Source: Methanosarcinaceae archaeon
GTDB lineage: Archaea; Halobacteriota; Methanosarcinia; Methanosarcinales; Methanosarcinaceae
Assembly: GCA_023544565.1 (NCBI GenBank)
Contig: JAMJFS010000017.1
Span: 1 to 35,819 of the forward strand
DNA: 35,819 nt
Direction: 5' to 3'
Shown: one piece after another, positions 8,602 through 13,642 of the stretch
Position numbering within the stretch: position 1 is the stretch's first letter
How the letters are laid out: each line of letters begins with the position of its first letter
Made by a program: the position numbers and the translations under genes
Notes under the pieces: model-generated
The model's input: only the letters and a program-made list of their open reading frames with translations
What the model was told of the DNA's origin: nothing
The model's database searches: none

Positions 8602-9630
8602 TTAACTAACCCGCACAGCATCCCCGATCGCCTTTTGCCACGCAACAGCATTATCAACCTCAATCTCGCGCTTGCGGAAATCATCTCCCGATTCCGAAAC
8701 AATGAGTTTCGCTTTTTTGAACATGCCACCTTTTACAATCTGTGACCCGATGATGCCCTTTACATTAATTTCCTCCCTCGATCCATCATGCATGTTAATG
8801 ATAGCCAACCGTTTATTTGTAAGTATTAAAAATTTCACACCCACTTGTGCCAATCTCAAAAGATACTCCCCTTTCAAATAATCTGCTCGCAGCCGTCCGA
8901 GCAGTTCGAGCACTCTTTCACGATTCTTTGGCTGGATATTGATGATCTCAATATTCTTTGCCCCCGTCAGAAGAAATATGTGTTTTGTTTCGGCGTGCAC
9001 ACCTATGATCTCATTTGTTCCGATGCGGCGGAATATCTCTGACTTATTAGAAAGCATTCCTCCGGTTCCTTTTTTAAAAAAGATGTTTTTGTTCGTAACG
9101 ATCATCGTAAGCCTATCTCTATCAATCACAACCGACTCGCTTGAAAGTATATTCTCGCCCCTTTTGAGGATCGCCCCATCGATTGCGGAATTCTTTTTAT
9201 CCGGCAATTCTGGGGTACTTGCTGCGGAGGGGAGTTGTGTCTGTGTATTCAGGCAATAATGGTTCAGCATTTCAACAAGCAAAGCGCCGCCGATGAGTTT
9301 CACATTATGCTCTGCAGCTTCACCCTCTGCTTCTTTTGTGAAACTGGATGTGGTTACAATTATCACCCCATCCACATTATCGCGGTATCGCAAACTGCTA
9401 TACTCGCGCACCTCTTTCACGCCAACGGCATCAGCATACCGTTTGACCTGAACAAGCCATCTGTGGGAAATACCAAAATGTTCAAGCGAAAGTTCGATAT
9501 CGACCCCGCCATCACGGGAATATTGGGTGACACTTGCTCTATACCTCATCTGTTTGAACAGATGCGCTACAAGGTTTTCAAGATCGCTAGGAGTTGTGCT
9601 CAAAAGATATTCGAGCGTCCATTTGGCCAT
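8602..9630 (-). CDS. Mrr-type restriction endonuclease-like protein with two PH-like C-terminal halves
   Basis: 342 residues. Residues about 10-125 match the Mrr catalytic fold: an N-terminal helix with E18, the RDGGVDI motif (39-45) and QVKR (61-64), i.e. the D...QxK active site of PD-(D/E)XK nucleases, followed by GVIIVTTSSFTKEA. After a linker, residues about 155-342 form two related beta-rich halves, each with a TNK(N/R)-hydrophobic turn (TNKNIFF and TNKRLAI), resembling bacterial PH/GRAM-like domains. Mrr nucleases usually cut modified or foreign DNA; the PH-like half suggests membrane or protein docking. The ATG at 9628-9630 has GGCGAGGA upstream, within the end of the zinc-ribbon gene; an upstream TTG at 9645 is less likely. 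No methyltransferase gene is adjacent. Confidence 0.85.
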   Translation of the reverse strand: MAKWTLEYLLSTTPSDLENLVAHLFKQMRYRASVTQYSRDGGVDIELSLEHFGISHRWLVQVKRYADAVGVKEVREYSSLRYRDNVDGVIIVTTSSFTKEAEGEAAEHNVKLIGGALLVEMLNHYCLNTQTQLPSAASTPELPDKKNSAIDGAILKRGENILSSESVVIDRDRLTMIVTNKNIFFKKGTGGMLSNKSEIFRRIGTNEIIGVHAETKHIFLLTGAKNIEIINIQPKNRERVLELLGRLRADYLKGEYLLRLAQVGVKFLILTNKRLAIINMHDGSREEINVKGIIGSQIVKGGMFKKAKLIVSESGDDFRKREIEVDNAVAWQKAIGDAVRVS

Positions 9631-9631
9631 A

Positions 9632-9808
9632 TCAGTCCTCGCCAACTGAGTATGAAAGACCGCATTCCTGGCAAGAATAAGTAATTGCTATGGCACCCTT
9701 TTTGCTCTTCTCTTCAGTGATTTTCATCCATGTGCCGCAGGTTATGCATTTTTGGTCGAAGATTGTGCGGTCCTTTGTAGACGATTTCGATTTATTTTTT
9801 TCTGCCAT
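9632..9808 (-). CDS. Small zinc-ribbon protein
   Basis: 58 residues from the ATG at 9806-9808, which has GGTG 6 bases upstream; the longer frame to 9871 has no ribosome site. A basic Lys/Ser-rich N-terminus is followed by two knuckles, CITC and CQEC, spaced 20 residues apart, forming a typical zinc ribbon. Its stop codon lies one base before the ATG of the Mrr-like gene, and its last codons supply that gene's ribosome site, so the two are translationally coupled. It probably binds nucleic acid or the nuclease; role inferred from coupling only. Confidence 0.8.
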   Translation of the reverse strand: MAEKNKSKSSTKDRTIFDQKCITCGTWMKITEEKSKKGAIAITYSCQECGLSYSVGED

Positions 9809-9961
9809 TTTTTCACCATTCACAATGCTGAAATGTATATAACTTATATCAATCATTTGAATACTTAACATTTATTGATTTCGCATGGTTGTGCGCGGTT
9901 GTGTGCTGTTCGTGCAAAATAGTTAAATCCATTAAGGACTAATAAGTGTGTGTGATAAATT

Positions 9962-10159
9962 ATGGCTGTAAAGATTAACAAAGATAAATGTGATAGTAAC
10001 CGGATGTGCGTCATTGTTTCAGCATGTCCCGTGGGTGCAATTAAACAAAGAAAGATTGGCCCTATCCTCGCAGATTATCCTGAAATTGATGAAGACAAAT
10101 GTGCGGAATGCGGAATCTGCATAAAGGAATGCCCACATGGTGCAGCGTATAAAGAATGA
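9962..10159 (+). CDS. Small ferredoxin with atypical first cluster motif
   Basis: 65 residues, 2x[4Fe-4S] ferredoxin-like. The second motif is canonical (CAECGICIKECP, C47, C50, C53, C57). The first is C-x5-C-x5-C-P (C10, C16, C22) instead of C-x2-C-x2-C-x3-C-P, so one of the usual eight ligands is absent; one site may hold a [3Fe-4S] or otherwise ligated cluster. It likely donates electrons within the cytoplasm. It opens a same-strand run with a second ferredoxin, a thioredoxin and marker protein 14. No strong Shine-Dalgarno site precedes the ATG; an A/T-rich tract (gttaaatcc) near 9923-9931 may be its promoter. Confidence 0.9.
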   Translation: MAVKINKDKCDSNRMCVIVSACPVGAIKQRKIGPILADYPEIDEDKCAECGICIKECPHGAAYKE

Positions 10160-10204
10160 TGGAACAATTGTTACAAGCTAAATATTGAGGGGGAGCGATA
10201 AAAA

Positions 10205-10522
10205 ATGACAAAGTCGACAAAATGTGAAATTGGTAAAGGTGTCAAAGAAGTCGCAAAATTAAAAATAAATCGATGTGATCGATCTCCTCTCTGTCCTGCC
10301 AAAAAAATATGCCCTCTGGATGCGATAACACAAAAAAGAAGGGGATTTTTGAACTTATTTGCCGATTATCCCGAGATCGATCAAAGTAAATGCATGGGAT
10401 GTGGAGTGTGCGTTGATGCTTGTCCCCGTGGTGCAATTTATATGAAACCGATCGACACGAAAAACAAAAACAAAAACAAAAACAACAACAACAACAATAA
10501 TAAGTCACATAAAAATAAGTAA
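10205..10522 (+). CDS. Second ferredoxin with Asn/Lys low-complexity tail
   Basis: 105 residues; GGGGGAG lies about 10 bases before the ATG. The core (about 18-82) parallels the preceding ferredoxin: first motif C-x5-C-x5-C-P at C24, C30, C36 and canonical second motif CMGCGVCVDACP (C63, C66, C69, C73). An extra cysteine is at residue 7. The last 20 residues are almost only N and K, encoded by a simple-sequence repeat, and are unlikely to fold. It is a paralogue of the gene 45 bases upstream and lies 27 bases before the thioredoxin start. Probably an electron carrier for the same process. Confidence 0.88.
   Translation: MTKSTKCEIGKGVKEVAKLKINRCDRSPLCPAKKICPLDAITQKRRGFLNLFADYPEIDQSKCMGCGVCVDACPRGAIYMKPIDTKNKNKNKNNNNNNNKSHKNK
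10460..10501 (+). repeat. In-frame microsatellite (aaaaac)4(aac)4(aat)2
   Basis: Four 6-bp aaaaac units (10460-10483), then four aac (10484-10495) and two aat triplets (10496-10501), all inside the ferredoxin reading frame. Unit changes would alter tail length without a frameshift. Confidence 0.9.
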
Positions 10523-10549
10523 TATCGTTATAAAATAAGGGTGAGTTCA

Positions 10550-10942
10550 ATGAACGAATTGGAAGCGATCAGGAAAAAGAAGATGGAACAAATTATCAAA
10601 AAAAAAGAACTTGAAGGTTATCCAGATAAGCCTGTCATTGTTACGGATGCAGATTTCAATATATTTATATCAAAATATCCATTGGTTGTAGTTGACTGCT
10701 GGGCAGAATGGTGTGGCCCATGTCGTATGCTTGCACCGACCGTTGATGAACTTGCCACTCAGTACAGGGGAAAGATAGTATTCGGAAAACTTGATACTGA
10801 CAATAATCGTGCAACTTCAATGCAATACAAGATATCAAGCATTCCTGCGATGCTTGTTTTCAAGAACGGGAATTTTGTAGGGCAAATAATCGGTGCAGTT
10901 CCAAAAGAGCAAATTGTCAAGCAATTGCAACCTCTTATGTGA
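10550..10942 (+). CDS. Thioredoxin with Lys-rich N-terminal extension
   Basis: 130 residues from the ATG at 10550; GGTGAG ends 4 bases before it, and the GTG at 10541 is part of that site. The active site WCGPC (54-58) and the cis-proline turn SSIP (P99) are present, with the usual DxDxN segment (DTDNN) between. A helical, lysine-rich extension of about 25 residues precedes the thioredoxin fold. It reduces protein disulfides in the cytoplasm. It sits 18 bases before the marker 14 gene, which suggests that it services that protein or its target. Confidence 0.95.
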   Translation: MNELEAIRKKKMEQIIKKKELEGYPDKPVIVTDADFNIFISKYPLVVVDCWAEWCGPCRMLAPTVDELATQYRGKIVFGKLDTDNNRATSMQYKISSIPAMLVFKNGNFVGQIIGAVPKEQIVKQLQPLM

Positions 10943-10960
10943 AAAATGGAAGTGAAATGA

Positions 10961-12385
10961 ATGTCAAAACCAAGAATTGCAGATAGTCCTACAGTACGTT
11001 TTATTGACCTTAAGTCAAAACCATATTTCATTGTCGCGTCCGTTGAGGTCGGAAACACTACTACAAAGTGCATCCTTACGGCCACAAATATGGAGGATGG
11101 AAAGACAAGACATGTGACAAAAGTCATAAAGATGACGAGGGATGTGCGCGATCCTTTGCCTGGTGAAGTGGTTTTTGGAAGGACATTGAATGGCATTGAA
11201 CTGACACGCGAGTCGGTTTCTGAACTTGTCCGCAATACCCTTGTTGAGGCTGTGAAAAAGGCAAATCTCGATATTAAGACTGATCTAAATTTCGTTGTAC
11301 GCTCAACAGGAGTAGTTGCAGGTTTTGATGTACCAGAAGAGGTGGGCGAGTTTATCAAAGCATTGGCTGATGGTTGTCTTTTGGCAGGCGTTCCTCCAAA
11401 GAATATGACTCCACCAATGACCATTGAGAATCTGCCTAAAAAGTTTCAAAAGTTCAGTAAGCTTAAACAGGTTGTATTTGACGGTGCAGTAGCAAGTGTC
11501 AACCCCCCGCTTGGTTCAACAGGGGTTGAGATAGTCGCAAATGAGATGGAAGGCGAACTTGCAACGGCGGGTATTAAGGAAGGTGCTAAATGGGCAAATG
11601 TTGATTTCAGGAATCCGTGCCTTTCAATTGATTTCGGAACTACGCTTGATGGTCGCATTACCAGCGATGACAGGCCTTATGCAAAGACGATTGGTAATTT
11701 CTGTGGTTATGCAGGTGCTATTCCTGATGCTATGATCAAAGGCACACACACAGTTGATGTGATCCTTGGGACTGTATTGGATGTTTTTGATGAAAAAAAG
11801 ACTGATATAATGACACTTAAACTAAATGGCAAGATTATCCGCGAGTATGCTGAAAAGATCCATGATCATATAATTATCGAAAAAGTACCAAAAAACCGTA
11901 CTCGATATGGAAGCGTGCCTGTAAATCCAGAGGCTGCCGATGAACTGGGAGTTGTTCTTATAGGCTGTGATGTTGGGGAGAACGGTTCTGACATGAGCAA
12001 ACTGTCAGAACTTGGCGGTGAGATCTATAAGAAACACGGGCTCAAGATATTATTTGCAGTGATCGATGAGGTCATGGCAAAAGTTGTCTACCGTCTTGTA
12101 AAGGTTGCACAGGATGTGGGACTTGTATTTGAAAATACATCAATAGGCATAACCGGAAGAGCAGGGATCAGCGGTAACAAGCCAAAACTTGCTTTGAAGT
12201 ATCTTGAAGATCTCAACATAAATCACAATATCGAGGAGCGCGTGGTTTTCGTGGATGATGGGCTTGCAAGAGGCGCAGCAGTCATGGCACGTTGCATGAA
12301 CTCACTTGGCACAACCCAAAACCCTCTTGGTGGCCATTCCGGCGGCAAATGTATTCTGGGGCAGAGAATTAAGTTGCAGAGTTAA
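10961..12385 (+). CDS. Methanogenesis marker protein 14 (ASKHA-like ATPase)
   Basis: 474 residues, matching the family defined as putative methanogenesis marker protein 14, which is found in genomes that encode methyl-CoM reductase. An ASKHA-type (actin/Hsp70/sugar kinase) nucleotide fold is suggested by SVEVGNTTTKC near residue 30 (phosphate-1 loop), LSIDFGTTLDG near 225 (phosphate-2 loop) and SIGITGRAGISG near 395. Related ASKHA proteins act as ATP-driven reductive activators of radical or corrinoid enzymes. Function of this family is not established as far as I know; an activating or repair role in methane metabolism is inferred. GGAAGTGA precedes the ATG. It is the last gene of the ferredoxin-ferredoxin-thioredoxin run. 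Confidence 0.92.
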   Translation: MSKPRIADSPTVRFIDLKSKPYFIVASVEVGNTTTKCILTATNMEDGKTRHVTKVIKMTRDVRDPLPGEVVFGRTLNGIELTRESVSELVRNTLVEAVKKANLDIKTDLNFVVRSTGVVAGFDVPEEVGEFIKALADGCLLAGVPPKNMTPPMTIENLPKKFQKFSKLKQVVFDGAVASVNPPLGSTGVEIVANEMEGELATAGIKEGAKWANVDFRNPCLSIDFGTTLDGRITSDDRPYAKTIGNFCGYAGAIPDAMIKGTHTVDVILGTVLDVFDEKKTDIMTLKLNGKIIREYAEKIHDHIIIEKVPKNRTRYGSVPVNPEAADELGVVLIGCDVGENGSDMSKLSELGGEIYKKHGLKILFAVIDEVMAKVVYRLVKVAQDVGLVFENTSIGITGRAGISGNKPKLALKYLEDLNINHNIEERVVFVDDGLARGAAVMARCMNSLGTTQNPLGGHSGGKCILGQRIKLQS

Positions 12386-12880: not shown

Positions 12881-13642
12881 CTAAACGTCTACAGTTTCTT
12901 CTTCTACTGCTGGTGCGTCTACAGTTTCTTCTTCTACTGCTGGTGCGTCTACAGTTTCTTCTTCTACTGCTGGTGCGTCTACAGTTTCTTCTTCTACTGG
13001 GACATCTTCAAGTATTTCCACTGGTGCATCTTCAGGTTTTGATCTGGTTTCAACCATGTGTGCAGGTACGAACAAGACGCGAGTCTTTCTGATCTCAACC
13101 CTTCTAAGCGGATAGATATATTTTGTTTGCCTGTATATGTTTGCAGACAACTTCCCGATAATTGCTTCCTCAATGAACTGCTCATAATTCACTTCAGATG
13201 CCCGCTTTATAACGGTCTTGATCATCTCTTCCCTGATACCTTTGATCTGGCTTGTACGTGCTCTTTTAACTGTGAAGCATGTAGGTTTTACAGTAACCTT
13301 GTAGCCGTCTTTTGTTTTAACGTTAAGGTTTGCATCGATCCTTGAGGTCTGGCGCTTTACAATTGAACGAAGATAATCGGTAGTGAGCTCATGACCAAGG
13401 AATTTCGTGTGTGCAACATTGCCCACAACGTCATTGATCTCAAGTTTGAGTTTTGTGTTATGTTTTGAGAAATCGTTTGTGAGTTCACCAACAGTTGTCT
13501 CAACAACACGCCCGATCAAATTCTCCGGGTCATCAGTTGGAGTAAAACCGATCTGGTTACTTCCCATGAACTTTGGTATCTCAACAGAATACCATGTTTT
13601 TGATTTCCACTTATCTAATTTCCTCTGTACTTTCCGTGCCAT
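12881..13642 (-). CDS. rps3ae: 30S ribosomal protein S3Ae (eS1) with repetitive acidic tail
   Basis: 253 residues. The N-terminal 200 residues match archaeal S3Ae/eS1: [18 protein letters not shown], then [26 protein letters not shown] and KTRVLFVP. This small-subunit protein lies near the mRNA exit/platform region. GGAGG is 6 bases before the ATG. After about residue 203 the chain becomes an acidic, low-complexity tail with a 10-residue unit ([10 protein letters not shown]) repeated, which is longer than usual for the family. It is followed by a clear terminator. A TATA-like tract lies around 13815-13830, which would imply a long leader; other A/T tracts closer to the gene are possible promoters. 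Confidence 0.96.
12887..12999 (-). repeat. 30-bp in-frame tandem repeat in the S3Ae tail
   Basis: The unit gtctacagtttcttcttcta plus ctgctggtgc occurs at 12887-12916, 12917-12946 and 12947-12976 without mismatch, with a fourth partial copy at 12977-12999. Each unit encodes ten residues of the acidic C-terminal tail. The identity between units points to recent expansion. Confidence 0.95.

Follow-up and report, generated by a model that had tools for sequence, protein, structure and literature searches.

What a methanogenesis marker protein does in the cell, and which enzyme it serves, is the question raised by a contig stretch of 35,819 nucleotides (the window), which is read here as coming from an anaerobic methanotrophic (ANME) archaeon of the ANME-3 group. 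At positions 9962-12385, four open reading frames (ORFs) lie on the + strand: two ferredoxin-like genes, a thioredoxin gene and the gene of methanogenesis marker 14 (Mmp14). The original prediction placed them head to tail with gaps of 45, 27 and 18 bases, and the ORF coordinates confirm this. It further suggested a reductive activator for an enzyme of the methane pathway, such as methyl-coenzyme M reductase (Mcr) or a corrinoid methyltransferase. The second of these clients is now supported, namely methyl-tetrahydromethanopterin:coenzyme M methyltransferase (Mtr) by way of its corrinoid subunit MtrA, while Mcr finds no support in the genome profile or in published work (PMC12176620).

In many methanogens no step other than Mtr pumps sodium; ANME archaea use it in the reverse direction. 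Its cobalt must be in the Co(I) state to accept a methyl group. A 2025 paper on the structure of Mtr leaves the activator open (PMC12774963). In 2014, Borrel et al. reported that marker 14 lies near mtr operons and is absent along with Mtr in the Methanomassiliicoccales, and a role in Mtr functioning was suggested (PMC4153887).

Mmp14 follows MtrA across genomes

The mmp14 gene occupies positions 10961-12385 (+ strand). Its product is a full member of the marker 14 family (DUF2114, TIGR03285, arCOG04866), with a DUF2114 match at 4.5e-230 and a TIGR03285 score of 706.8 bits against a cut-off of 274, covering profile positions 1-444 of 446. Apart from the suggestion of Borrel et al., this family has no assigned function.

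The occurrence of Mmp14, MtrE, McrA and MtrA was sampled in 394 genomes of the phylum; beyond this phylum, the search library covered two named controls. Genomes are termed high-quality if their completeness reaches 90% and their contamination does not exceed 5%. The family codes f1-f38 are labels internal to the analysis, and two matches with E values of about 1e-4 to 1e-3 (G066, G119) were discounted as spurious. Mmp14 is found in nearly every Mtr-bearing genome sampled. Among high-quality genomes, as tallied by hand from the listed rows and in accord with the machine-made totals, Mmp14 and MtrA occur together in 194, Mmp14 alone in 3 and MtrA alone in 5; for Mmp14 and McrA, the corresponding counts are 188, 9 and 8. 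Some genomes are incomplete, and each absence call rests on a single family. The agreement is high with both proteins, and the informative genomes are those in which McrA and MtrA differ. All eight high-quality genomes with MtrA and without McrA carry Mmp14 (G006, G016, G026, G036, G044, G052, G301, G367), though in G301 and G367 the missing McrA probably reflects assembly gaps at mcrA. The cases are not independent, as the families f10, f16 and f20 may form one clade with a single loss of Mcr. Conversely, Mmp14 occurs in none of the three clear high-quality cases with McrA and without MtrA (G020, G209, G219), and it is also missing from the lower-quality Mcr-bearing, Mtr-less genomes G118, G156 and G303. 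Two special cases with McrA and without MtrA hold Mmp14 and are exceptions to this rule. In G368, the absence of MtrA is probably an assembly gap, because Mmp14 and MtrE are both there. G082, the one Mtr-less alkane-type genome with an Mmp14 match, is an ambiguous exception: the match is partial (residues 281-446), lies at the edge of a contig and shares about 60-65% identity with several lineages.

The best single case for a link to Mtr is Ca. Serpentinarchaeum Met12 (G006), in which mmp14 stands in mid-row and both Mcr and the sodium pump are lacking. This archaeon, known from a circular genome, lacks Mcr and the synthesis of coenzyme M, coenzyme B and coenzyme F430 (PMC11176372), and neither McrA nor MtrE was found in its genome here. 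Its gene row reads mtrA, mtrH, mmp14, methionine synthase and thyA, the last being a methanogen-type thymidylate synthase (L123:2417-7496). MtrABCDEGH have been given as absent from Met12 (PMC11176372); contrary to this, clear homologues of subunits A and H are present, with mtrA matching PF04208 at 2.4e-58 and mtrH scoring 420.8 bits for TIGR01114 against a cut-off of 271. The methionine synthase gene (PRK00957, 328.6 bits against a cut-off of 258) shares its first 4 bases with the end of mmp14. Its product would be of the MesA type, for which MtrA is the predicted methyl donor (Price et al. 2021, PMC7857596). In Met12 the methyl group is likely to pass from methyl-tetrahydromethanopterin to MtrH, then to MtrA and finally to methionine. 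This order of genes is independent support for the prediction.

Gene neighbourhoods, read by clustering the ORFs in 93 loci around mmp14, point the same way. In f13, the genes from mtrE to mtrH are followed by mmp14: at L096, it is directly downstream of mtrEDCBA..GH, with about 160 bases between the last mtrH and mmp14, and at L102 it lies near the same operon. In f9, it adjoins a divergent mtrE (L115, L116, L118, L119, L122), and in f10, f16 and f20 it is found together with mtrA-mtrH (L120, L121, L123). A looser arrangement, with mtrE in the same orientation at a distance of 9-13 kb, is seen in f8 (G063, G127, G184) and in part of f5 (G048, G067, G079, G105, G115). Thus, Mmp14 both co-occurs with the mtr genes and neighbours them, as an Mtr-associated protein should, while its presence is not tied to Mcr. 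On these genome comparisons, MtrA, or Mtr as a whole, is quite probably the client of Mmp14.

Two further observations concern the family itself. In three small genomes of genus g140 in the Methanosarcinaceae (G397, G403, G409), Mmp14 is strongly diverged, scoring 514-547 bits against about 700; they may be gut-dwelling members of the family, in which Mtr is considered to have a purely anabolic role. An in-frame TGA in mmp14 of f16 was considered as a recoding event and rejected, as it falls where the match ends at the C-terminus. No relatives of Mmp14 were found in viral contigs.

A putative ATPase of the ASKHA class

The known ATP-driven activators RACo and RamA carry the domain PF14574. This domain was not found in the genome of the window, nor in f2, f3, f4, f5, f10 and f20, though Mtr and Mmp14 are there; the control M. 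jannaschii likewise has Mtr and Mmp14 and no PF14574 match. Mtr therefore needs another activator in these genomes, and Mmp14 is the obvious candidate. A search by sequence returned no relatives of Mmp14 in the PDB. An AlphaFold model built from 36 sequences is modest (mean predicted local distance difference test score, pLDDT, 64.3), and in a fold search with it all 50 PDB matches listed are ASKHA (acetate and sugar kinase/Hsc70/actin) proteins, the best at E 1.2e-5. They include Kae1, Qri7, hexokinases and RACo, the latter (3zyy, 4c1n) at ranks 9, 14 and 18. The description of marker 14 as ASKHA-like thus holds at the level of the fold, as far as a low-confidence model may suggest.

The motifs may fit such an assignment. 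Three invariant blocks, GNTTxK, DFGTTxxGR and TGR..DDGLARGA, appear to resemble the phosphate-1, phosphate-2 and adenosine motifs of nucleotide binding. The putative phosphate-1 motif is E29-V-G-N-T-T-T-K36 (approximately 11048-11070, + strand), and the putative phosphate-2 motif is NPCLSIDFGTTLDGR, with C220 and D224-R232 (approximately 11618-11656, + strand). Across 91 sequences, Cys139, Cys445 and Cys464 show little or no variation, and Cys220 and Cys248 are nearly invariant.

In its fold class, its proposed corrinoid methyl carrier client and its proposed ATP-driven reduction of Co(II) to Co(I), Mmp14 would be like RACo and RamA. It is unlike them in having neither PF14574, DUF2114 being its sole Pfam match, nor a ferredoxin domain in its chain, and in occurring in genomes without any PF14574 protein. 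The BadF/BadG family domain of the HgdC/BadF-type activases was not matched in Pfam at E <= 0.001 either. Membership in the RACo/RamA or EutA families was considered and rejected for want of profile support.

Whether Mmp14 drives electrons into the corrinoid of MtrA with the help of ATP is a question on which we find the case evenly balanced. The strongest competing explanation is that it acts on MtrA as an assembly factor or a cobamide-exchange reactivase, in the manner of EutA or the diol-dehydratase reactivase, which loads or replaces the cobamide or holds its base-off state. The evidence that links Mmp14 to MtrA fits such a role equally well. Reactivases of the EutA type are ASKHA proteins without iron-sulfur (Fe-S) clusters, and the chain of Mmp14, which has no Fe-S domain, is compatible with this. 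E. coli EutA aligns with Mmp14 at the phosphate-1 motif only (GxTTTKxI in Mmp14, GTTTTQVI in EutA), and both would serve a cobalamin enzyme, although the client of Mmp14 would be a methyl carrier and not an adenosylcobalamin radical enzyme. The conserved cysteines and the thioredoxin neighbour, however, point to redox chemistry, and this explanation is considered unlikely.

The thioredoxin pair and the added ferredoxins

The thioredoxin gene (10550-10942, + strand) is taken from its ATG, though an alternative GTG at 10541 is possible. Its product is a true thioredoxin, with a Pfam Thioredoxin match at 2.8e-29, a TIGR01068 score of 112.4 bits against a cut-off of 96.8 and a WCGPC site. The basic N-terminal extension, MNELEAIRKKKMEQIIKKKE, is real, as originally described. 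It is not specific to this locus, as the extension (ELEAIRKKKMEQI) is common to the orthologues in most families sampled. In the sampled Methanosarcina genomes (g7, g8), the extended thioredoxin was not found, the best matches reaching only about 1e-14, and mmp14 is kept there.

In 24 loci, 5-42 bases separate the thioredoxin stop from the Mmp14 start, while the surrounding genes vary. This adjacency is seen in most Methanosarcinaceae genera read, Methanosarcina excepted; no thioredoxin adjoins mmp14 in Methanosarcina or in the other families whose loci were read. The conserved unit is thus the thioredoxin-Mmp14 pair, and it is confined to one archaeal family, because the loci outside the Methanosarcinaceae show the thioredoxin away from mmp14.

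The two ferredoxins do not share this conservation. Both genes, Fd1 (65 amino acids, 9962-10159) and Fd2 (105 amino acids, 10205-10522), lie on the + strand and were called from their ORFs and Fer4 Pfam matches. In Fd1, the cysteines are arranged as C10-x5-C16-x5-C22-P, followed by C47-x2-C50-x2-C53-x3-C57-P; Fd2 is about 44% identical to it. The second motif, CxxCxxCxxxCP, and the dicluster Pfam matches are like those of 2[4Fe-4S] ferredoxins. The first motif, C-D-x4-C-x5-C-P (Cx5Cx5CP), has one cysteine fewer than the usual C-x2-C-x2-C-x3-C-P, so that the dicluster core has seven cysteines and departs from the eight-cysteine pattern. They are therefore indeed atypical, and a [3Fe-4S] or Asp-ligated first cluster is possible. 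The C-terminal end of Fd2 is a low-complexity run rich in Lys and Asn, KNKNKNKNNNNNNN (10457-10522), which lies outside the match to relatives.

A protein search of 91 Methanosarcinaceae genomes found relatives of these ferredoxins at E <= 1e-8 only in the genus of the window. Further, two ANME-3 loci (L003, L004) hold the thioredoxin-Mmp14 pair with no ferredoxin in the 1.1 and 0.8 kb of sequence upstream. The ferredoxins are therefore a recent and facultative addition present in only part of ANME-3, and a conserved four-gene operon was rejected. Of the neighbourhood conservation that had been proposed as a check, only the pairing of thioredoxin and Mmp14 is borne out, within one archaeal family.

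A second Cx5Cx5CP ferredoxin stands in a row with another thioredoxin elsewhere in the genome of the window (L171:3170-4236, contig C9). This pair precedes formylmethanofuran dehydrogenase genes and is divergent from an HdrA-like gene.

It has to be weighed whether these adjacencies are merely neighbourly, being the outcome of shared transcription or genome economy, with the thioredoxin as a general thiol reductant and the ferredoxins serving other enzymes. All other families encode the extended thioredoxin at a distance from mmp14, Methanosarcina has none beside mmp14, the ferredoxins are absent from two ANME-3 loci, and the second ferredoxin-thioredoxin pair of the same genome precedes genes for another enzyme. 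Against this, the short thioredoxin-Mmp14 gaps are kept in 24 loci amid changing neighbours. An accidental adjacency is regarded as rather improbable.

A proposed activation of MtrA and the case against it

The preferred reading, reductive activation of MtrA, would proceed as follows. Mmp14 would bind MtrA whose cobalt has left the Co(I) state for Co(II) or Co(III). The binding or hydrolysis of ATP by Mmp14 would open the MtrA site, and an electron donor would then restore Co(I). Such a cycle would parallel the action of RACo on the corrinoid iron-sulfur protein and of RamA on methylamine corrinoid proteins. The co-transcribed thioredoxin of most Methanosarcinaceae, Methanosarcina excepted, would hold conserved cysteines in a reduced state, either those of Mmp14 or those of MtrA. 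The two Cx5Cx5CP ferredoxins, added upstream in part of ANME-3, may be a dedicated electron donor. What the analysis shows directly is the order of the genes, their occurrence across genomes and the class of fold. The use of ATP, the electron transfer and the roles of thioredoxin and ferredoxins are all inferred, and the thioredoxin as cysteine guardian and the ferredoxins as donors are guesses from gene order.

Several observations weigh against this reading. MtrA or Mtr occurs without Mmp14 in G343, G362 and G062, and two genomes of the alkyl-coenzyme M reductase type (G025, G147) have divergent MtrA proteins (about 1e-44 and 1e-41) and no Mmp14; these may have another activator or another role. 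The fold model is weak (pLDDT 64, template modelling score about 0.3). Pfam and NCBIfam scans find no Fe-S domain in the Mmp14 chain, unlike in RACo and RamA. Profile alignment by hhalign gives a probability of 0.9% against 28 RamA/RACo-type sequences and of 0.7%, over 19 columns, against E. coli EutA. The thioredoxin is dispensable, because Methanosarcina keeps mmp14 after losing it, and the ferredoxins are missing from the two ANME-3 loci described above. Lastly, in Methanosarcina (g7, g8) mmp14 and mcrA share a strand and are 13-30 kb apart, so that linkage to Mcr is not nil.

This linkage, and the presence of Mmp14 in nearly all sampled Mcr-bearing genomes, would favour a role in the reductive activation or maturation of Mcr, but such a role is very improbable: Mmp14 is kept without Mcr in f10, f16 and f20 and is absent from the Mcr-bearing, Mtr-less genomes, and Mcr was rejected as its client from the genomes that have one of Mcr and Mtr but not the other. 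The purified ATP-driven Mcr activation complex consists of McrC, Mmp7, Mmp17, Mmp3 and A2; its ATPase is A2, and Mmp14 goes unmentioned (PMC12176620). It is comparable in comprising methanogenesis marker proteins and in ATP-driven reductive activation, while its proteins and its client are others.

Surroundings of the locus

To the left of the locus lie two divergent genes on the - strand, an Mrr-like nuclease gene (8602-9645) and a small Zn-ribbon-like gene (9632-9871). They form the left flank of the thioredoxin-Mmp14 pair in much of the Methanosarcinaceae, and no part in the proposed function is ascribed to them. Downstream of mmp14 and convergent with it are the gene of ribosomal protein S3ae and a long ORF, read from its sequence as a putative seryl-tRNA synthetase. 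The C-terminal tail of S3ae, at 12881-13030, is made of repeated short units beyond the Pfam match. The nearest named relatives of the Mmp14 protein come from Methanosarcinaceae bins, among them HMMV ANME3_53 (88%); the best match is at 97%.

Significance for Mtr and for marker genes

In its fullest form, the proposal casts Mmp14 as the activator of MtrA that has been missing in methane-metabolising archaea: ATP-driven, nearly universal and unrelated in sequence to RACo and RamA. It would act outside methanogenesis as well, where MtrA and MtrH of Ca. Serpentinarchaeum supply methyl groups for methionine, and in ANME-3 an operon would chain ferredoxins to Mmp14 and to cobalt under the guard of thioredoxin. 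Taken as a whole, this is tentative and less likely than not. No earlier report was found of the Mcr-free mtrA-mtrH-mmp14 row, the ASKHA link, the thioredoxin-Mmp14 pair or the ANME-3 ferredoxins, the subscription literature being outside the search, and priority for them is not certain.

If true, the proposal would give the gap of the Mtr activator a named candidate gene that can be tested in genetically tractable methanogens. One ‘methanogenesis marker’ would then be a marker of MtrA rather than of methanogenesis, with consequences for the claims made from marker genes for uncultured archaea.

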